From positions 63,097,447-63,161,446 of the forward strand of contig CM057477.1 of the NCBI GenBank assembly GCA_030035585.1: DNA of 64,000 bases, given 5' to 3'. Under the pieces are notes generated by a model that was not told the DNA's origin, ran no database searches, and saw nothing but the letters and a program-made list of their open reading frames with translations. The DNA comes from Dugong dugon. Its lineage: Eukaryota; Chordata; Mammalia; Sirenia; Dugongidae. Numbering within the stretch: position 1 is the first letter of the stretch; every line of letters starts with the position of its first letter. A program made the position numbers and the translations under genes. Shown here in pieces: positions 1 through 58,533 of the stretch.

Positions 1-115
1 TTGATGGTGAAATTAGGTCATTTCCAGATAAACAGAAATTAAGGGAATATGTAGAAGTAAAACCAAACCTATAACAATTATTAAAGCGAGTTCTTCGATC
101 TGAGGACAAACAGCA
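1..115 (+). pseudogene. L1 ORF1 C-terminal remnant
   Basis: The frame beginning near base 3 reads DGEIRSFPDKQKLREYVEV, which matches the C-terminal domain of L1 ORF1p, the RNA-binding chaperone of the L1 particle. A stop follows a few codons later, and only this end lies in the window. Its position about 400 bases before ORF2 is as expected for L1. Confidence 0.7.
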
Positions 116-520
116 TCAGCTCACAGGCAGAACCTAGGATGTAGGATCGTACCAGCCAGATACCAATCTATGAAAAGAACTCTTCAGGACTATCCAAAAC
201 CAAAAGAAATACAACAGGGAATCAGAGAAGTTAATCAGTAAATGACAATAATATCAGAACAATAAAAGAGGGAATAAACGGCATAGGTATAGAACCTTCT
301 AATGGAGAGGAAGGCAAGGCTATACCAAGTAATGGTAGACTGTTTCAAACTTAGAAAGATAAGGGTAAAATTTATGGTAACCACAAAGAAAGTTAACAAA
401 CATACTCATTAAAAAAAAAAGAGGAAAAACATAAAGTCTCAGCAAAAGCAAAACCTACAAAAACAAAAGAATTAAAAAAAAATCCACAAACAAAAGTAAC
501 TCAGCACAAGAGAGTAAGAA

Positions 521-3500
521 GAACAAATAAAACATCAGCACTACAAACTGACAGCAACAAACCCACATCTATCAATAATTACACTGAATGTAAATAGACT
601 CAATGCACCCATAAAGAGACAGAGAGTGATGGAATGGATAAGAAAACAGGATCCATCAATATGCTGTCTACAGGAGACACACCTTAGAAACAAAGATGTG
701 AATTTATTAAAAGTCAAAGGTTGGAAAAAAATATATCAAGCTAACAACTACAAAAAAAGAGCAGGAGTGGCAATTCTAATCTCAGATAAATTAGATTTTA
801 AAACCAAATCTACCATAAAAGACAAAGAAGGACACTACATAATGATTAAGGGGATGATCCATCATGAAGACATAACCGTAATAAACATCTACACACCCAA
901 TGACAGGGCTCCAAAATACATAAAACAAACTCTAACAACGCTGAAAAGAGAAATTGACAGTTCCACAATAGTAGTAGGAGACTTCAACACACCACTCTCA
1001 GTAAAGGACAGAACAACTAAGAAGAAACTCAGCAAAGATACAGAAGACCTAAAGGGCACAATCAGCCAACTTGACCTCATAGACATATATAGAACACTCC
1101 ATTCAACAGCTGCAAAGTACACATTCTTTTCCAATGCACATGGAATGTTCTCCAGAAAAGACCACATCTTAGCCACAGAACAATCCTCAACAAGATCCAA
1201 AACGTTGAGATAATTCAAAGTATCTTCTCTGACCACAATGCCATCAAGGTAGAAAATAACAATAGAAAGAGCAAGGAAAAAAAATCAACTACATGGAAAC
1301 TGAATAATACCCAGCTTACACATCACTGGGTAATAGAAGAAATCAGAGATGGAATCAAAAAATTCCTAGAATCAAATGAGAATGAAAACTCATCATACCA
1401 AAACCTTTGTGACACAGCAAAGGTGGTCCTCAGAGGACAATTGATAGCAATAGATGCACATATCAAAAAAGAAGAAAGTGACAAAATCAAAACATTAACT
1501 ACACAACTTGAACAAATAGAAAGAGAACAGCAAAAAAAGCCCACAACCACCGGAAGAAAGGAAATAGTAAAGATCAGAGCAGAAATAAATGAAATAGAGA
1601 ACAGAAAAACAGTAGAAAGAATCAACAAAACCAAAAGTCGGTTCTTTGAAAGAATCAACAAAATCAACAAACCACTGGCCAGACTGACAAAAGAAAAACA
1701 GGAGAGGACACAAATAACCCAAATAAGAAATGAAATGGGGGGCATTACAATGGACCCAACTGAAATAAAAAGGATTATAACAGAATATTATTAAAAACTA
1801 TACTCCAACAAATTTGAAAACCTAGAGGAAATGGATAAATTTCTAGAAACACACGGCCTACCCAAACTACAATAAAGTGATGTTGAAAATCTGAATGACC
1901 CATAACAAGAGAAGAGATTGAGAAGGTAATAAAAAAACTCCCAACCAAAAAAGCCCTGGCCCAGATGGCTTCACTGGAGAATTCTACAAAACATTTACAG
2001 AAGAGCTTGTACCAGTACTACTCAAGCTATTTCAGAGCATAGAAGAGGAAGCAACACTTCCATATTCATTCTATGAAGCCAGCATAATGCTGATACCAAA
2101 ACCAGGAAAAGATGTCACAAAAAAAAATTACAGACCAATATCTCTCATGAATATAGATGCAAAAATTCTTAACAAAATTCTAGCCAATAGAGTTCAGCAT
2201 CATATCAAAAAAATAATACACCACGACCAAGTAGGAATCATACCAGGTATGCAAGGATGCCTCAACACTAGAAAATCAATCAACGTAATCCACCACATAA
2301 ATAAAAGGAATGAAAAGAATCACATAATCATCTCAACTGACACAGAAAAGGCATTTGACAAAGTCCAACACCCATTCTTGATAAAAACTCTCAATCAAAT
2401 AGGTATAGAAGGGAAATTTCTCAACATAATAAAGGGCATCTATGCAAAACCAATGGCCAACATCATTCTTAATGGAGAGAGGCTGAAAACATTCCCCTTG
2501 AAAACAGGAACAAGACAAAGATGCCCTTTATCACCACTCCTATTTAACATTGTGCTGGAAGTTCTAGCTAGAGCAATAAGGCAAGAAAAAGAAATAAAGG
2601 GCGTCCAAATTGGTAATGAAGAAGTTAAACTGTCCCTGTTTGCAGATGATGTGATACTATACACAGAAAATCCTAAAAACCACTGAGAAATCTACTGGAA
2701 CTAATAGAAAGATTCAGCAGAGTAGCGGGATACAAGATAAACATTCAAAAATCAGTTGGATTCCTATACACCAGTAAGGAGAACGATGCAAAGGAAATCA
2801 GGAAAACAGTACCATTTTCAATAGCCCCTAGAAAGATAAAATACTTAGGAATAAATCTGATGATTTAAAAGACATATACAAAGAAAACTACAAAACACTA
2901 CTGCAAGAAACCCAAAGTGATCTACATAAATGGAGAAATATACCATGCTCATGGATAGGCAGACTCAACATTGTGAAAATGACAATTCTACCCAAAGCAA
3001 TTTACAAATACAATGCAATCCCGATCCAAATACCAACAACATTCTTCAAAGAGATGGAAAAACTAATCATTAACTTTATATGGAAAGAGAAGAAGTCCTG
3101 AATAAGTAAAGCACTACTGAAGAAGGATAAAGCTGGAGGACTCACACTACCTGACCTCAGAACCTACTATACAGCTACAGTAGTCAAAACAGCCTGATAC
3201 TGGTACAACGACAGATACATTGACCAATGGAACAGAACTGAGAACCCAGATGTAAATCCATCCATCAACGGTCACATGATCTTCGACAAGGGCCCGAAGT
3301 CTATCAAATGGGGAAAGACAGTCTTTTTAACAGATGGTGCTGGCAAAACTGGATATCCATCTGCAGAAAAATGAGACAGGACCCATACCTCACGCCGTAT
3401 GCAAAAACTACTTCAAAATGGATCAAAGACCTGAATATAAAGCCTAAAACTATAAAGTTCATAGAAGAAAAAATAGGACCAACACTTCAGGCCTTAATAC

Positions 3501-4359
3501 ACGGCATTAACAGGACACAAACCATAATCATCGATGCACAAAACCCCAATAGATAAGCTAGATAACTGGGATCTTCTAAAAATCAAACACCTATGCTCTT
3601 CAAGAGACTTCACCAAAAGAGTAAAAAAAAGAACCTACAGACCAGGAAAAAATTTTTGGACAGTACAAGTCAGACAAAGGTCTAATCGCCATAATCTACA
3701 AGAAAATCCAACACCTCTACGACAAAAAGACAAATAATCCTATTAAAAAATGGGCAAAGGAAATGAACAGACACTTCACCAAAGAAGACATTCAAATGGC
3801 TGACAGACACATGAGGAAATGCTCGCGATCACTAGCCATTAGAGAAATGCAAATTAAAACCACAATGAGATACCATCTCACCCCAGCATTACTGGCACGA
3901 ATCAAAAACACTGGAAATAACAAATGTTGGAGGGGCTGCGGGGAGATCGGAACTCTTACGCACTGCTGGTGGGAATGCAAAATGATACAACCATTTTGGA
4001 AAGTGATATGGCACTTCCTCAGAAAGCTAGAAATAGACATACCATTCGATCCAGCAATCCCACTCCTACGAATATGTCCTAGAGAAATAAGAGTCGTCAC
4101 TCGAATAGACATATGCACACCAATGCTCATGGCAGCATTGTTCACAATAGCAAAACAATGGAAACAACCTAGATGCCCATCAACAGATGAATGGATAAAC
4201 AAACTATGGTACATACACACAATGGAGTACTATGCAAGGAGAAAGAACAACAGTGAATCTGTGAAGCATCTCATAACATGGATGAAACTGGAGGACATTA
4301 TTCAGAGTGAAATAAGTCAATCACAAAAGGACAAATATTGTAGGAGACCTCTCTTGTAA
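521..4359 (+). pseudogene. L1 ORF2 (endonuclease-reverse transcriptase), frameshifted
   Basis: ORF2p nicks target DNA and reverse-transcribes L1 RNA at the nick. The start region is open without an ATG (SIITLNVNRLNAPIKRQR at about 572). The endonuclease domain runs to 1213 with QETHLR, NIYTPND and VGDFNTP. A segment at 1423-1794 is the lysine-rich linker. Reverse transcriptase lies at 2087-2686, with [12 protein letters not shown] (motif A) and [13 protein letters not shown] (catalytic FADD, intact). The C-terminal part at 3763-4359 keeps the cysteine motif CX3CX7HX4C ([18 protein letters not shown], near 3935-3990). At least five breaks separate these blocks. It is a decayed copy, not a host gene. 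Confidence 0.93.
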
Positions 4360-5530
4360 AAACCCATGAAAAAGTTCACACACAAAATGTAACAATCTTT
4401 GTTGGTTACTAGGGATGGAAAGGGTGGGTGGGGGAATATTAAATAGACAATAGATAAGTGGTATCTTGGGTGAAGGGTGAGACAGTACCCAATACAGGAG
4501 AAACTAGCACAACTTGTACAAGGAAAGGTCATGGAAGCCCCATAGACACATCTAAACTCCCTGAGGGATTGAATTGCTGGGCGGAGGGCTCTGGGGACCA
4601 TGGTCTCAGAGAACATCTAGCTCAATTGGTATGACACAGCTTAGGAAGACAATGCTCTACATTCTACCTTGGTGAGTAGTGTCTGGGGTCTTAAAAGCCT
4701 GTGAGCGGCCATCTAAGATACTCCACTGGTCTCATCCCTTCGGGAGCAAGGGAGAATGAAGAGAAACAGGATACAAGGAAAAGATCAGTCCGAAGGACTA
4801 ATGGACCACAGCTACCAAGGCCTCCACTGGAGTGAGTCCACTACAGCTAGATGGTGCCCGGCGACCACCACTGACTGCTCTGACCAGGATCACAACAGAG
4901 GGTTCTGGACAGAGCTGGAGAAGGATGTAGAGCATAATTCTAACCCATAAAAAAAAAGACCAGATTACTGGCCTAAAGGAGACTGGAGAAACCCTGAGAG
5001 TATGGCCCCCAGACACCCTTTTAGCTCAGTGGTGAAGTTACCTCCGAGGTTCACTGTTCAGCCTGGGAGGGGACAACCCCGTAAAACCAAATGAGACTAA
5101 CAAGGTACAGGAGTCCAGTGACAAGGGCCAGAAAGCAGAAGGGGACAAGGAAGCTGGTGATAGGGAACCCAAGATTGAGTAAGGATATTGTTGATGTGTT
5201 GTGAGATTGTTAACCATTGTCATAGGAAAACATGTGTAGTAACTGTTAAATGAGAAACTATTTTGTTCTGTAAGCCTTCATCTTAAGTGAGAATAACAGC
5301 ACAATTCGAAGAGCGTAGTCAATGTCACTGAACTGTATATGTAGAAATTTTTGAAATGGTGTATCTTTGGCTATGTGTATTTTCACCAAAAGAAAAAAAG
5401 ATTGAGAATTTAGAGGGTTGATATGTTGTGGGGTTGTTAACCAACGTCATAAAACAATATGTGTACTACTGTTTCATGAGAAACTATTTGTTCCGTAAGC
5501 CTTCACCTGAAGTACAATAAAAAAAAAAAA
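4360..5530 (+). repeat. L1 3' UTR with two successive 3' tails
   Basis: Lineage-specific L1 3' UTR, recognised by GTCTGGGGTCTTAAAAGCC, GCCATCTAAGATACTCCACT and CTAGATGGTGCCCGG, which recur at 20300, 20975, 24010 (antisense) and 38760 (antisense). The terminal block (TTGTTAACC, ATGTGT, TTCTGTAAGCCTTCA) occurs twice, at about 5170-5275 and 5405-5515. A different L1-type end with CAATGTCACTGAACTGTA lies between them. This suggests either a second short L1 insertion or a 3' end duplication. Confidence 0.85.
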
Positions 5531-9218: not shown

Positions 9219-9553
9219 AATGGTTCAGGGGTAGAATTCTCGTCTTCCATGCGGGATACTTGGGTTTGATTCCAGGCCAATGCACCTCATACACAGCCAT
9301 CCTCTGTCTGTCAGTGGCAGCTTGTGTGCTGCTATGGTGCTGAATAGATTTCAGCAGAGCTTCCAGACTAAGACGGACTAAGAAGAAAGGTCTGGCAAGC
9401 TACTTCCGAATATCAGCCTAGGAACCCTATGGATCACAGCAGTCTAACCCTCAACTAATCATGGGGATGGTGCAGGACCGAGAAGTGTTTTATTCCATTT
9501 TGCATGGGGTCACCATGAGTCGGAGGCCAGCTCTATGGCAGCTAACAACATGT
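9219..9553 (+). mobile_element. Composite SINE: tRNA-Gly head + RTE 5' part + RTE 3' tail
   Basis: The head at 9222-9290 (ATGGTTCAGGGGTAGAATTC…GGGTTTGATTCCAGG…CAATGCA) matches tRNA-Gly. The A box is GGTTCAGGGG, the anticodon loop reads CTTCCAT, and the B box is GGGTTTGATTCC. The body (GTGTGCTGCTATGGTGCTGA, AGCAGAGCTTCCAGACTAAG) is like the 5' region seen at 14670-14830. The tail from about 9450 (GGATGGTGCAGGACCG…GGTCACCATGAGTCGG…GCAGCTAACAACA) is the RTE 3' end. The head would give internal RNA polymerase III promoter boxes. It is unlike the AfroSINE head used by nearly all other SINEs here. Confidence 0.8.
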
Positions 9554-13430: not shown

Positions 13431-13889
13431 TCAGGGCTCTTTTCAATGTAAATGACAGAAACTCAACTCCAAATCTGAAGTGAAAACAGAAATAAACTAC
13501 ATCACTGAAATATGCAGGAGGATATCTGACTTCAGAGATGGATGGATCCAAAGACTCAAAAGACGTAATCCAGGATAAATCCTTCTCTATCTCTTGCTTT
13601 CCCCTGTGTTGGTTTCAATAAGGTAGATTCAGCCCGCATGGTGATGAGATGACCAATAGCACCTCCAGGCTTACTTCCTAGAAACTCCAGTGGAACTAAT
13701 TCAAAAAATTACTCATCAAACCCAGTTTTATTTGCCTGACTTGATCTTATCATCATTCATGAACCAAACACTGTGTCCAGAGGAATGTGGTACTCTGACT
13801 GGCCAGGCTTAGATCTCACTGGGCAGCCTCCCTTAATCATCTGGATTGAGAAGTAGGAAAGAGATTGTTCTCCTTGAAAAACTGGTGTG
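13431..13889. repeat. Possible old dispersed repeat, not classified
   Basis: Text such as AGGGCTCTTTTCAATGTAAA, CAGAAACTCAACTCCAAAT and GGATGGATCCAAAGACTCA resembles an old mammalian interspersed repeat, but I cannot name it. It runs up to the RTE piece that starts at about 13890. Confidence 0.35.
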
Positions 13890-14645
13890 CTATTATCCGA
13901 AAGTGAAGAGGACTTGACACACTTACTGATGAAGATCAAAGACTACAGCCTTCAGTGTGGATTACAACTCAACCTAAAGAAAACAAAAATCCTCATAAGT
14001 GGACCAATAAGCAACATCATGATAAACAGAGAAAAGACTAAATTTGTCAAGGGTTTACTTTTACTTGGATCTACAATTGACACCCATAGAAACAGCAGTC
14101 AAGAAATCAAACGATGTATTACATTGAGCAAATCTGCTGCAAAAACCTCTTTAAAGTGTGAAAAAGCAAAGATGTCGCCTTGAGGGCTAAGGTGAGCCTC
14201 ACTCAAGTCATGGTGTTTTCAACAGCTTCGTATGTGTTCAAAAGCTGGGCAATGAATAAGGAAGACCAGAGAAGAACTGATGCTTTTGAATTGTGTTGGC
14301 AAAGAATATTGAACATACCATGGACTGCCAGAAGAACAAACAAATCTGTCTTGGAAAAAGTACAGCCTGAATGCTCCTTAGAAGTGAGGATGATGAGACT
14401 TTGTCTCATGTACTTTAGACATGTTATCAGAAGGGACCAGTCCCTGGTGAAGGACTTCATGCTTGGTAAAACAGAGATCAGCAAAAAAGAAGAAGAGCCC
14501 CAATGAGACAGACTGACACAGTGGCTGCAACAATGGGTTCAACCAGCAATGATTGTGAGGATGGTGCAGGACCAGGCAGTGTTTCTTTCTGTTGTACGTA
14601 GGGTCACTATGAATCGGAACCAACTTTACACACCTAATAGCATCG
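13890..14645 (+). mobile_element. RTE/BovB-type LINE, 3' 0.75 kb
   Basis: Sense RTE with the reverse-transcriptase end ESEEDLTHLLMKIKDYSLQC and GLQLNLKKTKILISGPISN (frame from 13887), then QRRTDAFELCWQRIL and RLCLMYFRHVIRRD (frame from 14180), finishing at GAATCGGAACCAACTTTACAC. A frameshift near 14180 separates the two frames. The 3' end lacks a clean (AAC)n tail. Confidence 0.88.
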
Positions 14646-14649
14646 TCAG

Positions 14650-15105
14650 AAGCCACCACCTGTCTGTCATTTTTTCATACTGTGGGGGCTTACATATTGC
14701 TATGATGCTGGAAACTATGCCACCAGTTTTTCAAATAACAGCAGGTCACCATGGTGGACAGGTTTCAGTGAGGTTCCAAAGGAAGATAAACTATGAAGAA
14801 AGGCCTGGTGATCTACTTCCAAAAATTAGCCAATGAAAACCTTGTGGATCACAACAGAACATTGTCCGATTTTCTTGCTTTAGACATGTCATCTGGGAGA
14901 TCAGTCGAAGGAGGAAGACATCATGTTTGGTGACGCAGAAGGCCAGCAAGGGGGACGGAGATCCTCGGTGAGAAGGACTAGCACAATAGCCACAATGGAC
15001 TCGAAACTGCCAGTGATTGTGAGGATGATTCAGGACTGGGCAACATTCCATTCTATTGTACATAAAGTTGCCATGGGTTGGAGTTGACTTGATGGCAGCT
15101 ATTAT
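14650..15105 (+). mobile_element. Headless RTE derivative: 5' end joined to 3' end
   Basis: The first part (GTGGGGGCTTACATATTGCT, ATGCTGGAAACTATGCCACC, GACAGGTTTCAGTGAGGTTC) aligns to the body of the tRNA-Gly SINE and to what I recall of the 5' end of afrotherian RTE. From about 14870 it becomes the RTE 3' end (TTTAGACATGTCATC, GACATCATGTTTGGTGACGC, TGGGTTGGAGTTGACTTGA). No tRNA head precedes it. It is either an internally deleted RTE or a Bov-A-like non-autonomous element. Confidence 0.65.
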
Positions 15106-15114
15106 GATCATCAA

Positions 15115-15313
15115 GGAGCCCTGGTGGTGCAATGGTTAAGCACTCAGCTGCTAACCAAATGGTTGGTGGCTAGAACTCACCAATCAGCTCTGAGAGAAAG
15201 ACCTGGTGATCTGCTCCCATAAAGATCGCAGCCTAGAAAACACTATGGGGCAGTTCTACTCTGTCACATGAGGTCACTATGAGTTGAAATCAACTCGACA
15301 GCACCTAACAACT
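15115..15313 (+). mobile_element. AfroSINE
   Basis: tRNA-like head GGAGCCCTGGTGGTGCAATG…GCTGCTAACC, middle AAAGATCGCAGCCTAGAAAA, and RTE-derived tail GGTCACTATGAGTTG…AGCACCTAACAACT. It lies only about 10 bases beyond the headless RTE derivative. Confidence 0.93.
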
Positions 15314-19366: not shown

Positions 19367-19688
19367 GGTTGTTACTGTTAGCTGCCATGGAGTCAGTCCC
19401 CAACTCATGGGAACCCCAGGCACAGTCCTATGCCATCAATGATTGGTTGGGGATCTGACCGTTGTAATCCATAGGGTTTTCATTGGCTGAAGTAGATTGC
19501 CAGGCCTTTCTTCCTAGCTCATCTTAGTCTGTAAGTTCTGCTGAAACCCATTCAGCACAACAGCAACACTCTAGCCTCCACTGACACATGAGTGGTGGCT
19601 GCGCATGAGGTACATTGGCCTGGAATCAAACCTGGGTCACCCAGATAGAAGGGAAGAATTCTACCACTGAACCACCCATGCCTCAGAC
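19367..19688 (-). mobile_element. Composite SINE: tRNA-Gly head + RTE tail, second copy
   Basis: Antisense. The head lies at 19620-19685: its reverse strand reads GCATGGGTGGTTCAGTGGTA, GAATTCT, then AGGTTTGATTCCAGGCCAAT, again tRNA-Gly-like with a B box. The body (reverse of CTGCTGAAACCCATTCAGCA) and the tail at 19367 (TGTTACTGTTAGCTGCCATG) match the copy at 9219. Two independent loci with the same join show that it is a real SINE family and not a chance juxtaposition. Confidence 0.8.
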
Positions 19689-34138: not shown

Positions 34139-34343
34139 GAGTCCCTGGGTGGTGCAAATGGTTAACACGCTTGGTTGCTAACCAAAAGATTGGAGGTTCA
34201 AGTCTACCCAGAGGTGTCTAGGAAGAAAGGGCTGGCAATCTACTGCTGAAAAATCAGCCATTGAAAACCCTATGGAGCACAGTTTTACTCTGACACAGGT
34301 GGGGTTGCCATGAGTCAGAATCCACTACAGAACAACTGGGTGG
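34139..34343 (+). mobile_element. AfroSINE, GAGTCCCTGGG subtype
   Basis: GAGTCCCTGGGTGGTGCAAA…AAATCAGCCATTGAAAACCC…CATGAGTCAGAATCCACTAC. It directly abuts a MIR, so it may have inserted within it. Confidence 0.94.
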
Positions 34344-38142: not shown

Positions 38143-39116
38143 TATTATTATTATTTTTTTAATTTTTTCCCATACAAAAATTTATACATACATTGTTATG
38201 TGACCCTAATTGCTCTCCCCATACCGCGACAGCACTCTCCTCCTTTCGACCCAATTCCCCATGTCCATTCAACCAGCTCCTAACCCTCTCTGCCTTCCCA
38301 TCTCAACTCCGGACAGAAGCTGCCTGTTCAGTCTCTTGTATCTACTTGAGCTAAGAGGCACCCTCCTCATGAGTATCAATTTATGTCCCCCAGTCCAGTC
38401 CAATCCATGTCTGAAGAGTTAGCCTCAGAAATTGTTTTAGTTCTGGGCTGATAGAGAATCCGGGAGCCATGCTTTCCAGGGTTCCTCCAGTCTCAGTCAG
38501 ACCAGTAAGTCTGGTCTTCTTATTAGAATTTGAGTTCTGCACCCTACCTTTCTCCTGCTCTATCAGGGTCTCTCTGTTGTGTTCCCTGTCAGGGCAGTCA
38601 TTGGTGATAGCCAGGCACCATCTAGTTCTTCTGGTCTCAGGCTGATGAAGTCTCTGGTTTATGTGGCCCTTTCTGTCTCTTGGGCCTAATACTTTCCTTA
38701 TGTCTTTGGCGTTCTTCATTCTCCTTTACTCCAGGTGATTGGGACCATTTGATGCATCTTAGATGGCCGCTTGCAAGCTTTTAAGACCCCAGCTGCCACT
38801 CACCAAAGTAGGATGCAGAACATTTTCTTCATAAGCTTTGTTATGTCAATTGACCTAGATGTCCCCTGAAAGCATGGTCCCCAGATCCCTACCACTGCTA
38901 CTCTGTCCCTCAAAGTGTTTGATTTGTATTCAGGAAACTTCTTAGCTTTGGTTTAGTTTAGTTGTGCTGACTTCCCCTTTAGTGTGTGCTGTCCTTCCCT
39001 TCACCTAAGGTAATTCTTGTCTACTATCTAGTTAGTAAATAACGCTCACCCTCCCTTGCCACCCTCGTAACCATCAAAGAAGGTTTTCTTCAGTGTTTAA
39101 ACTTTTTCTTGACTTC
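38143..39116 (-). repeat. L1 3' UTR of the full-length element
   Basis: Antisense blocks CCAGTCTCAGTCAGACCAGT, CAGGCACCATCTAGTTCTTC, GTTCTTCATTCTCCTTTACT and TTTTAAGACCCCAGCTGCCA match the 3' UTR at 4660-5050. The minus-strand 112-codon frame (38719-38381) is UTR sequence, not a gene. Confidence 0.9.
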
Positions 39117-42100
39117 TTATAGTAGTGGTCATATACAACATTTGTCCTTCTGTGACTGACTACATTCACTTATCATAATGACCTCCAACTTTCTCCATGT
39201 TATGTTTCACGGCTTCATCGTTATTATCATTGCATAGTATTCCATTGTGTGGATGTACCATAATTTGTTTATCCATTCATCTGTTGATGGGCACTTAGGT
39301 TGTTTCCATCTTTTTACTATTGTGAACAGTGCTGCAGTGAACATGAGTGTACATATTTATATCTATTCGTATGATGGCTCTTATTTCTCTAGGATATATT
39401 CCAAGGAGTGGGATAGCTGGATCGTATGGTACTTTTATTTCTACCTTTTTAAGGAAGTGCCAAATAGATTTCCAAAGTGGTTGTACCATTTTACATTCCC
39501 ACTAACAGTGTGTAAGTGTTCCAGTCTCTCCACAACCTCTCCAGCATTTGTTATTTTGTGTTTTTTGGATAAATGCTAGCCTTGTTGGGGTGAGATGATA
39601 TCTCATTGTAGTTTTGATCTACATTTCTCTAATGGCTAATGATCATGAGCATTTCTCATGGGTCTGTTAGCTGCCTGAATATCTTCTTTGGCGAACTGCC
39701 TGTTCATATCCTTTGCCCATTTTTTAATTGGGTTGTTTGTCTTTTGATTGTTGAGGTTTTGCAGTATCTTGTAGATTTTAGAGATTCGATGCTGATCAGA
39801 TTTGTCGTAGCCAAAATTTTTTTCCCAGTCTGTAGGTTGTCCTTTGACTCTTTTGGTGAAGTCTTCTGATGAGCATATGTGTTTGATTTTTAGGAGCTCC
39901 CAGTTATTTAGTCCTGTTCTGGTGTTTGTGCATTGTTACTTCCGGTTTCCATTGTGTTTATGCCATGTATTAGGGCTCCTAGCATTGTCCCTATTTTTAA
40001 TTCCATGATCTTTATCATTTTTGATTTTATATTTAAGTCTTTGATCCATTTTGAGTTAGTTTTTATGCATGGTGTGAGGTATGGGTGTTGTTTCAGTTTT
40101 TTGCAGATGGATATCCAGTTATGCCAGCACCATTTGTTAAGAGACTGTCTTTTCCCCAGTTAATGGACTTTGGGCCTTTGTCAAATATCAGCTGCTCACA
40201 GATGGATGAATTTATGTCTGGATTCTCAATTCTGTTCCATTGGTCTATGTATCTGTTGTAGTACCAGTACCAGGATGTTTTGACTACCATGATAGGTTCT
40301 AAAATCAGGTAGTGTGAGGCCTCCCACTTTGTTCTTCTTCTTGAATAACACTTTACTTATTTGGGGCCTCTTCCCTTTCCATATGAAGTTGGTGATTTGT
40401 TTCTCCATCTCATTAAAAAATGCCGTTGGGGTTTGGATCAGGATTGCATTGTATCTATAGATTGCTTTGGGTAGAATTGACATTTTCACAATATTGAGTC
40501 TACCTATTCAAGGTATGTTTTTCCACTTATGTAGGTCTCTTTTGGTTTCTTGCAGTAGTGTCTTATAGTTTTCACTGTGTATGTCTTTTATGTCTCTGGT
40601 TAGATTTATTCCTAAGTATTTTATCTTCTTGGGGGCTGTTGTAAATGGTATCGATTTGGTGATTTCCTCTTCGAGGTTCTCTTTGTTGGTGTAAAGGCAT
40701 CCAACTGACTTTTGTGTGTTTATCTTGTATCCTGATACTTTGCTGAAATCTTCTATTAGTTCCAGTAGTTTTCTTGTGGATTCTTTGGGGTTTTCTGTGT
40801 ATAGGATCATCTCATCTGCAAATAGAGATACTTCGACTTCTTCCCCACCAATTTGGATGCCCTTTATTTCTTTTCCTAGCCTAATTGCTCTGGCTAGGAC
40901 CTCCAGCACAATGTTGAATAAGAGTGGTGATAAAGGGCATTCTTGTCTGGTTCCTGTTCTCAAGGGGAATGCTTTCAAAGTCTCTCCATGTAGGATGATG
41001 TTGGCTGTTGGCTTTGTATAAATGCCCTCAATTACACTGAGGATTTTCCCTTCTATTCCTCTGTTTTTATCATGAATGGGTGTTGGACTTTGTCAAATGC
41101 CTTTTCTGCATTGATTGATAAGATCATGTGGTTCTCATCTTTTGTTTTATTTATGTGATGGATTGCATTGATTGTTTTTCTAATGCTTAACCATCCAGGG
41201 ATTCATACCATACCTGGTATAAATCCCACGTGATCATGTTGAATTATTTTTTTGATATGTTGCTGAATTCTATTGGCTAGAATTTTGTTGAGGATTTTTG
41301 TTTGCATCAATGTTCATGAGGGATATTGGTCTCTAATTTTCTTTTTTTGTGGTGTCATCACCTGATTTCGGTATCAGGGTTATGCTGGCTTCCTAGAATT
41401 CATTTAGGAGTATTCCACCCTTTTCTATGCTCTGAAATACCTTTATGAGTAGTGGTGTTAACTCTTCTCTGAAAGTTTGGTTGAATTCTCCAGTGAAACA
41501 GTCCAGGCCAGGGCTTTTTTTTGTTGTTGTTGGGAGTTTTTAAATTACCTTTTCAGTCTCTTCTTTTGTTATGGGTTTGTTTAGTTGTTCTACCTCTGTT
41601 TATGTTAGTTTAGGTAGGTAGTGAGTTTCTAGAAATTTGTCCATTTCCTCTAGGTTTTCAAATTTGTTAGAGTACAATTTTTCATAGTAATCTGTTACGA
41701 TTCTTTTAGTTTCAGTTGGGTCTATTGTGACATCACTCATCTCATTTCTTATACGGGTTATCTGCTTCCTCTCCTGCTTTTCTTTTGTCAGTTTGGCCAA
41801 TGGTTTCTCAATTTTTGTTGATCTTTTCAAAGAACCAGGTTTGGTCTTGTTACTCTTTCAATTGCTTTTCTTATTCTCTATTTCATTTAATTCTGCTCTA
41901 ATTTTTAGTATTTCCTTTCTTCGGCACCTGAGGGCTTCTTTTGCTGCTCTCTTTCTACTTGTTCCAGTTGTAGGGTTAACATTTTGATTATGGCCCATTC
42001 TTCTTTTTGGATGTGTACATTTATTGCTGTAAACTGACCTCTGAGCACAGCTTTTGCTGTGTCCCAAAGGTTCTGGTAGGATGTGTTTTCATTCTTGTTT

Positions 42101-42957
42101 GATTCTATGTATTTCTTTATCCCATCATTAATTTCTTCTGTAAGCCAGTAGTTTTTGAGCAAGGAGTTATTCAGTTTCCATGTGTTTGATTTTTTTTCTG
42201 TTGTTGATTTCTACTTTTATGGCTTTATGGTCAGAAAAGATGCTTTGTAATATTTCGATACTTTGGATTTTGTTAAGGCTTGCTTTATGGCCTAATATGT
42301 GGTCTGTTCTGGATAATGTTCCATGTGTTTTGGAAAAGAAAGTATACTTGGCTGCTGTTGAGTGGAGTGTTCGGTATATGTCTATGAGATCTGGTTGATT
42401 GTAGCATTTAGCTCTTCTATGTCTTTGTTGAGCTTCTATCTGGATGTTCTGTCCTTCACCAAAAGCGGTGTGTTGAAGTCTCCTACTACTACTGTGGAGC
42501 TGTCTATCTCTCTTTTCAGTGCTGTTAGAGTTTGTTTTATGTATTTTGGATCCCTGTCGTTGGTTGTGTAAATATTTATTATAGTTATGTCCTCCTGGTG
42601 TATTGACCCTTTAATCATTATGTAGTGTCCTTCCTTATCCTTTGTGGCAGATTTTACTTTAAAGTCTATTTTGTCAGAGATTAATATTGCCACTCCTGCT
42701 CTTTTTTGAGTGTTGTTTGCTTGATATATGTTTTTCCATCCTTTGAATTTTAGTTTGTTTGTGTCTTTAAGTCTAAGGCATGTCTCTTTTAGGCAGCATA
42801 TAGACAGTTCGTGTTTTTTTATCCAATCTGCCACTCTCTGTCTCTTTATTGGTGCATTTAGTCCATTTACATTCAGCGTAATTACTGATAGGTATGAGTT
42901 TAGTGCTGTAGTTTTGATGTCTTTTTTTGTGTGTTGTTCACAGTTTCTTTGTTCCAC
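39117..42957 (-). pseudogene. L1 ORF2 (endonuclease-reverse transcriptase), broken
   Basis: Starts at 42957 with MEQRNCEQHTKKDIK, then SVITLNVNGLNAPIKRQRVA. The endonuclease runs to 42436 (KETCLR, VVVGDFNTPLLVKD), where the first break occurs. Reverse transcriptase lies at 40978-40508 with [20 protein letters not shown], and motif C reads [10 protein letters not shown]: the second catalytic aspartate is replaced by glutamate. Later blocks at 40489-40226 and 39489-39295 are connection and C-terminal domains. A QETHL-type glutamate context is kept as KETC. Stops and frameshifts exclude function. Confidence 0.93.
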
Positions 42958-43628
42958 TTAATTTTCTGTGTTGAGTCATTTTTCTTTATGTATTTTCTTT
43001 TCTTCTTTTTCATTGTCATTCATTTTGTGTTTGCTGAGTCTTTACATTTTTCTAGTTTTTTGTTTTGACTTGTAGGATTGTTAGTTTCCTTTGTGGTTAC
43101 CTTAATATTTACCCCTATTTTTCTAAGTTTATACCAGTCTTTTATTTCCTTATATCGCCTTGACTTCCTCTCCATATGAAAAATCTATGTCTACATTTTT
43201 TAAGTCCCTCTTTTTTGTTTTAATGTTGTCATCTTTTACATATTGGCATCTGTTTCCCTATTTTCAGTGTTTTAGCTTTGATTTACTTTTGTGACTTCCC
43301 TATCTGGGTTGATATCTGGTTGCTCTGTCCTGTGTTCTCGTCTTGGGTTGTTATCTGATGTTACTGATTTTCTAACCAGAGGACTCCTTTTAGTATTTCT
43401 TGTAATTTTGGTTTGGTTTTTGCAAATTCCCTAAACTTCTGTTTATCTGGAAATGCTCTGATTTCACCATCATGTTTCAGAGACAGTTTTGCTGGATATA
43501 TAATTCTTGGCTGGCAGTTTCTTTCCCTTCAAGGCTTTATATATGTCACCCCTTTGTCTTCTTGCCTGCATGGTTTCTGCTGAGTAGTCAGAGCTTATTC
43601 TTATTGACTCTCCTTTGTAGATGACTTT

Positions 43629-57656: not shown

Positions 57657-58125
57657 AACCTGTAGATGTCACTTTGATGACTAAGGTGCACCTGACCAAA
57701 GCCATGGTCTTTTCAATGGCCTCATATGCTGGAAAGCTGGACAATGAAAAAGGAAGACAGAAGAAGAATTGATGCAGTCAAATCATGGCATTAGTAAAGA
57801 ATATTGAATATACAGTGGACTGCCAGAAGAACGAACGAATCAGTCTTAGAAGTAATGCAACCAGAATGCTCCTTAGAAGCAAGGATGGTGAGACTTTGAC
57901 TCACTTACTTTGGACACTTCATCAGAAAAGACCAATCACTAAAAAAGGACATCATGTTCAGTAAAGCAGAAGGTCAGTGAAAACGAGGGAAATCCTCAAT
58001 GAGGTGGATTGACAAAAAGCTCAAACATGTCAATGATCATGAAGATGGCACAGAACCAAGCAGTGTTTTGTTCTGGTGTACATGAAGTCGCCATGAGTCA
58101 GAGCTGACTTGACAGCAGCTACCAA
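57657..58125 (+). mobile_element. RTE/BovB-type LINE, 3' 0.47 kb
   Basis: ATGTCACTTTGATGACTAAG, TGGACTGCCAGAAGAACGAA, GAATGCTCCTTAGAAGCAAG, GGACATCATGTTCAG and AGTCAGAGCTGACTTGACAG. No long frame survives. Confidence 0.9.
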
Positions 58126-58533
58126 CACAACAGGGAGAAGCTGTGAGAAGCTGCGGATGTCAATACTCTGGGGGCGGAACCTACCATGGAGAAGCAGGTC
58201 AGACGATTGTGAGCGACTTTGTCACAAGCAGTACTTGACCAGAAAGTCTCAGGCACTCTTGCCTTCCCCACGGTGGCCCCCAGTTCACATTTACTGCTTT
58301 TTCCTGTAATTGCTTAACTCCCTTATCACTCAATCAGCTCTGGATGAATGGAGCTGACTTTGGAAGTTATAATCTGGGTGCGCTTAACTAAATAGCAGTG
58401 GATCTACAAAAGAAAGCCTTAAGCCAGTTTCCTCCTGAAATTTCCAGCTATTAGATTTGACCAGCAATGGGAAGTTTCAGGTGTGGCAAGTATGTTAAGC
58501 TTTATCTTATTATGTCAATCTATGTTGCGATTA
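58126..58533. other. Unique sequence
   Basis: No repeat or gene recognised. Confidence 0.5.

Follow-up and report, generated by a model that had tools for sequence, protein, structure and literature searches.

This locus raises two questions: whether nucleotides 14650-15105 of the analysed 64-kb stretch of DNA (the window) hold a headless deletion derivative of an RTE element, and whether that derivative was the ancestor of the tRNA-headed SINEs found in the same window. A sequence-only reading had proposed both. We find that positions 14653-15101 are an old copy belonging to a non-autonomous family of headless RTE derivatives, here called headless-1, in which the first ~220 nt of RTE are fused to its last ~236 nt and a tRNA head is absent. 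For the parent LINE we keep the name RTE from that earlier reading, as a putative assignment to the RTE clade. A young RTE copy of the window carries an RVT_1 domain (E = 5.5e-14), representing the parent reverse transcriptase.

Within the window, the stretch 14650-15105 resolves into two RTE-like blocks lying end to end. For the 3′ block, from about 14870, the window holds eight matching RTE 3′ ends. The 5′ part aligns with the bodies of the two tRNA-headed SINEs in the window at scores of 110 and 106 (maxima of 200 shuffles each, 46.5 and 47), while the match of its upstream portion alone (14640-14790) is weak, since 2 and 32 shuffles out of 500, respectively, score as high. The inner 5′ part (about 14795-14853) also matches AfroSINE-like copies at 76-87%, depending on the copy, and agrees with one AfroSINE-like group consensus in 53 of 60 columns; allowing at most three mismatches, the window has 18 occurrences of a 24-nt core, the headless-1 element counted, against 0 in 100 shuffles. 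No RTE 5′ end was found within the 64-kb window, so that the identity of the 5′ part is unprovable from the window alone. Our RTE sample comprised 30 loci from the window's own genome (3.16 Gb), and the 11 most 5′-complete of them were extended upstream. All 11 match the 5′ part of the headless consensus, nine covering most of positions 1-220 at 80-87% and two (L068 and L063) partially. In the RTE 5′ consensus, built from nine extended copies with the two partial ones excluded, the onset of conservation coincides with the start of the headless consensus. The assignment of the 5′ part to RTE is thereby confirmed, as it matches the 5′ ends of full-length or near-full-length copies in the own genome. 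The RTE and headless-1 consensus sequences diverge at ..CATTGTCYGA, where RTE continues with TATAGTGCC.. (the match stops where RTE runs into ..GATATAGTGCC), and the headless-1 3′ block enters RTE at ..CTCACATACTTTGG..; the word TTGTC is present on both sides. Separately, the first ~670 nt of one RTE copy (L069) hold a 204-codon stop-free stretch, which begins at RTE nt ~54, crosses the 5′ module and reaches a stretch with ISELKWNG, which we take to be part of the endonuclease; the RTE 5′ module may thus be partly coding.

The junction between the two blocks is seen once in the window, and this copy has no clear target-site duplication, both of which would suit a single full-length RTE copy whose middle was lost by genomic deletion at the locus. 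In the own genome, a search with 14650-15105 gave 9,745 first-look candidates, of which the best 40 were scored; all 40, that is the window copy and 39 other places at 79-82%, span the same junction. Being the best matches to the query, these 40 places are a lower bound and are biased to full-length copies. The window copy and 27 fetched from the 39 other places (L001-L028) yield a 28-copy consensus of 456 nt, from CCACCACC to GGCAGCTA, with copies 85-92% identical (401/449 for the window copy). Flanking direct repeats scoring 7 or more are found in 10 of these 28 copies, the window copy lying outside the ten, against a mean of 0.41 and a maximum of 2 over 200 flank re-pairings; these target-site duplications indicate that headless-1 moved as a unit. 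The 39 further places refute a one-off deletion, against which the duplications also speak and which we regard as having virtually no probability. An RTE 5′ end joined to an RTE 3′ end without a tRNA head, with a breakpoint shared by other copies, is therefore borne out in the own genome by both checks for which the earlier reading had called. Scans of genome contig and viral contig collections for further copies had no yield.

A second alternative sees headless-1 as a degraded tRNA-headed SINE that lost its head or had it overwritten, an idea that draws on the alignability of its 5′ module to SINE bodies. The flanks refute it: 27 of the 28 copies begin sharply at the RTE 5′ start, at most 2 nt from the consensus start. 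This sharp start needs care, since full-length copies score best, a bias of which the target-site duplications are free. Headless-1 also has 12-nt and ~46-nt pieces and a longer 3′ module, all absent from the SINE, and we consider a degraded SINE extremely improbable. Neither ARAGORN nor Rfam found a tRNA within 14653-15101, and Rfam returned 0 matches on the element as a whole; across six RTE and headless loci it gave no match above gathering score and three below it, which we took as chance. Thus the family starts at the RTE 5′ start, without the tRNA-related head that marks a tRNA-derived SINE, and it has the features of a headless (5′-end-of-RTE) non-autonomous RTE family: an RTE-derived 5′ part, a 3′ end in common with the partner RTE, and many copies with one junction and target-site duplications.

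The 28-copy consensus places the element on the forward strand, starting with CCACCACC at 14653 and closing with GGCAGCTA, whose last base is 15101, before a short degenerate tail; the span 14650-15105 given earlier was accurate within a few bases. An element start at 14638-14641, also considered, was dropped in favour of this consensus start. The 5′ module (14653-14869, +) corresponds to the RTE 5′ end, RTE nt 1 to about 223, begins with CCACCACC, ends ..CATTGTCCGA and matches RTE 5′ ends of the own genome. RNA folding of this module in the window copy gave no structure signal (z = 0.64; 143 of 200 shuffles were at least as stable). The 3′ module (14870-15101, +) is the last ~236 nt of RTE, as judged from the eight RTE 3′ ends in the window and from an RTE 3′ consensus of 20 of the 30 loci (incomplete 3′ ends and L039 excluded); it would comprise the end of the reverse-transcriptase reading frame and the 3′ end of RTE.

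The window copy ends in a degenerate tail (15102-15112, +), whereas other copies carry TCTA-type or AAC-type tails. A simple script rule filed 14 of the 28 tails as TCTA-type, 11 as AAC-type and 3, the window copy among them, as other, and errs for at least one copy (L008, filed as AAC but TCTA-type by eye). The RTE and SINE consensus sequences, in contrast, end AAC, which makes this a tail switch inside one family.

Having established headless-1 as a mobile family, we turn to its relation to the tRNA-headed SINEs, of which the window holds two copies, at 9221-9552 (+) and 19370-19681 (−). The head of the latter (19611-19681) is barely above the Rfam tRNA cut-off (29.2 vs 29 bits); like the earlier reading, we presume the head of the SINE at 9221-9552 to be of tRNA-Gly type. 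A consensus of 18 copies (these two and 16 fetched from 39 other scored places) shows, in order, the tRNA, ~10 nt, the same CCACCACC start, a 5′ module without the 12-nt and ~46-nt pieces, and an RTE 3′ end. A linear path, from RTE to headless-1 and then, by a second internal deletion and tRNA capture, to the tRNA-headed SINE, would account for this common start after the ~10-nt spacer. It would also suit the 3′ terminus, GGCAGCTA in SINE and headless-1, and the states in which these two agree against the young RTE consensus (5′ module, 14; 3′ overlap, 10). The corresponding counts are 6 + 10 sites for SINE and RTE against headless-1, 12 + 16 for headless-1 and RTE against SINE, and 120 + 60 at which all three agree. 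However, the RTE 3′ end of the SINE begins about 125-145 nt downstream of the start of the headless-1 3′ block, and the headless-1 junction is therefore absent from the SINE. By paired matches, the 3′ boundary lies at profile position 1 in headless-1, at 126 in one tRNA-headed SINE copy and at 161-167 in four AfroSINE-like copies. A common 5′ breakpoint of SINE and headless-1 was also considered; the SINE's GTCTGAT fits, but an extra gap of ~7 nt is needed and other alignments are possible, and we do not claim it.

A second headless family bears directly on this question. At L031:880-1280, RTE nt 1 to ~270 are joined to the last ~124 nt, an arrangement we call headless-2. A 141-nt junction query gave 3,219 candidates, and each of the best 40 scored, L031 included, spans this junction. 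The consensus of 15 copies (L031 and 14 fetched from the 39 other places) ends GGCAACTAACAACAAC, also given as GGCAACTA, which differs from the terminus common to SINE and headless-1. Over aligned letters, the SINE is not nearer to headless-1 (228/262) than to headless-2 (213/249). At strongly conserved sites, counted with the SINE junction zone left out, the SINE sides with headless-2 against headless-1 three times and with headless-1 against headless-2 once, and at less conserved sites four times with each. One of the three headless-2-side sites (CCCTATGG) is also supported by both AfroSINE-like consensus sequences of the window, made from 12 and 7 hand-chosen copies. By these comparisons, headless-2 is no more distant from the tRNA-headed SINE than headless-1 is.

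The states common to SINE and headless-1 can be followed further. From the 24 shared against the young RTE, we chose 17 sites near-fixed in headless-1; 13 of these 17 states are also present in L031, and the RTE fragments at 57900 (R57) and 29890 (R29) each have 4 of the 5 that they cover. Because they are mostly present in L031 and in these two older fragments, the 17 states are best read as those of an older RTE, which tells against linear descent. Conversely, six headless-1 states occur in 22-26 of the 28 copies where the SINE consensus has the RTE state. Among them, positions 382 and 419 (25/28 copies each) retain the RTE state in both the SINE consensus and headless-2, again contrary to descent from headless-1. 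Position 160 is likely in CpG context, and L031 has the headless-1 state there; the headless-1 state is found at 363 and 419 in R57 and at 397 in L031 and R29; and position 363 adjoins the SINE's own junction. The sites that separate SINE from headless-1 are few and their evidence mixed. An older-looking RTE lineage is represented by a 3′ fragment at 57664-58134 (+), which has GCCATG and GCAGCTA in common with headless-1. An origin of the headless-1 3′ part in an old RTE lineage is weakly indicated by 10 RTE 3′ ends and better supported by the states of L031 and the older fragments. We obtained no autonomous copy of this older RTE, and each of our family samples consists of the best matches to one query.

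Phylogenetic analysis is permissive in this respect. A tree of 55 rows, with eight of the nine RTE copies in and the short RTE fragments R57 and R29 omitted, recovers the SINE copies as a clade (support 100/99) and likewise the young RTE copies (95/92), and the SINE clade attaches, weakly, among headless-1 copies, as linear descent would have it. In the same tree headless-1 does not appear as a group: it takes three changes, a single branch sets its copies apart in 0% of 200 bootstrap trees, and the element of L031 lies inside it. Constraining headless-1 to form one group has a cost of 17.3 log units without being rejected (p-AU 0.247), and the same holds for grouping SINE with headless (cost 10.3; p-AU 0.304). 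A tree of 10 RTE 3′ ends has no supported branch. Non-CpG divergence is alike across the sampled families (headless-1, 0.076 in 28 copies; headless-2, 0.084 in 15; SINE, 0.074 in 18; young RTE 5′ ends, 0.070 in 9), and age consequently cannot tell parent from sibling.

The proposal that headless-1 is the SINE's ancestor is thus not upheld, in that its junction is in none of the examined SINE copies or consensus sequences, and the tree neither shows nor excludes descent. We consider the linear path unlikely. The junctions and headless-2, though not the tree, favour several separate derivations from an older RTE over a headless parent with a SINE child. Most likely, headless-1, headless-2 and the tRNA-headed SINEs had separate origins from the older RTE and are siblings, with the SINEs not descended from headless-1. 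Taken as a whole, we find it probable that headless-1 is an RTE deletion derivative that spread, and a sibling of headless-2 and of the tRNA-headed SINEs.

The kind of element represented by headless-1, a headless RTE derivative, is already known, as is the ruminant parallel, although this applies to the kind and not necessarily to headless-1 itself. One table lists, for the elephant, RTE1-N1_LA with the "5′-end of RTE" in its promoter column, an RTE1_LA tail and no tRNA, and, for ruminants, Bov-A2 with the "5′-end of BovB" and a Bov-B tail (Ohshima 2013; PMC3747384). The parallel with ruminant Bov-A that had been drawn earlier is borne out by this one table, where both elements have the 5′ end of their BovB or RTE partner as promoter. 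RTE1-N1_LA resembles headless-1 in its RTE 5′ end, RTE tail and want of a tRNA, and exact identity of headless-1 with this Repbase family would be compatible with our preferred explanation. We hold it to be an evenly balanced possibility: composition and partner are as the table lists them, but the comparison is with a one-line description and not with breakpoints, and headless-2 fits that description equally well. In a full-text literature search for the name RTE1-N1_LA, only PMC3747384 was found, and of the results for PSINE1, it alone concerns the family, judged by listing. The same table names AfroSINE / PSINE1, and gives MAR4 (opossum, wallaby) and RTESINE1 (opossum) the "5′-end of RTE" and no tRNA; these are likened to headless-1 by table description and have other RTE partners.

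Other systems differ from headless-1 in their make-up. Bov-A2 is described as a linker-joined pair of Bov-A monomers, each of 116-117 bp, whereas headless-1 is a single 5′ + 3′ unit in its 456-nt, 28-copy consensus and thus not a dimer of this type. On Bov-A2, PMC4324840 cites a search by Onami and colleagues in which pol III promoter sequences were not found. The AviRTE SINEs, as presented in Suh et al. 2016 (PMC4844689), have bipartite tails from both UTRs and lineage-specific births and are there compared with BovB SINEs. They are like headless-1 in a body made from parts of the RTE 5′ and 3′ UTR and in births repeated across lineages, and unlike it in their separate promoter-bearing heads, of which headless-1 has none (PMC4844689). 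The AfroSINE-like SINEs of the window combine an RTE 5′ core with an RTE 3′ end, as headless-1 does, and differ in their tRNA-like head and different junctions. Gogolevsky et al. 2008 reportedly described the SINEs of BovB as bipartite.

The surroundings of headless-1 are themselves rich in repeats. A young, 5′-truncated RTE copy lies directly upstream (13898-14638, +), and an AfroSINE-like SINE with a GAGCCCTGG head (15113-15310, +) abuts the 3′ end; the family name AfroSINE is provisional, and the assignment to Afrotheria would follow from the AfroSINE-like motifs. The 8-mer GCTATTAT has only two sites in the 64 kb, 13889-13896 and 15098-15105, flanking the RTE copy together with headless-1; chance sharing of an 8-mer occurred in 36 of 5,000 random 25-mer pairs. 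We dropped the idea of a target-site duplication of RTE and headless-1 jointly, as the 3′ copy falls, by the family consensus, in the end and tail of the element. The pair is at best suggestive, and may reflect a single composite insertion by template jumping or chance identity with the tail. Positions 34141-34216 (+) are called a tRNA by ARAGORN (tRNA-Ser, GCT) and by Rfam and head an AfroSINE-like repeat with the RTE 5′ core in its body; they are probably a SINE head and not a gene. Positions 2-5029 and 38443-43472 form a 5-kb inverted pair (77% identity), which is probably a long repeat in two copies. Outside the window, at L044:1220-1419, an inverted RTE 5′ segment stands just before a forward RTE piece, like a 5′ inversion; its outer boundary, GTCTGA, is the RTE position of the headless-1 break, a single case that may be chance.

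As to how headless-1 arose, an RTE RNA or copy would have lost about 2.7 kb, from RTE nt ~223 up to the last ~236 nt, either by deletion or by a template jump, presumably across the short common word TTGTC. Transcription may then have come from RTE's own 5′ region, given the missing tRNA head. The RTE 3′ end and the target-site duplications point to copying in trans by the RTE reverse transcriptase, which would recognise that 3′ end, and headless-1 spread to many copies. The derivatives examined retain the 5′ core, and this suggests a role in mobilisation, but folding of the window copy gave no structure signal and Rfam no family above its cut-off. More broadly, and tentatively, one RTE lineage may repeatedly have given rise to short elements, each with its own 3′ junction, keeping either the RTE 5′ start (headless-1, headless-2 and, after a ~10-nt spacer, the tRNA-headed SINE) or the inner 5′ core (AfroSINE-like repeats).

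In this genome an autonomous LINE stands side by side with headless derivatives and with SINEs, but the examined SINEs lack the headless-1 junction. Several different junctions from one LINE in one genome amount to a natural experiment on the parts of RTE RNA required for mobilisation. If the recurrent-birth reading is true, the RTE machinery would need RNA signals from both ends, and SINEs would be born by repeated internal deletion or template jumping in RTE RNA, with a tRNA added at the RNA 5′ end. The birth of SINEs would on this view branch and be repeatable, instead of following a single lineage from RTE through a headless element to a SINE.
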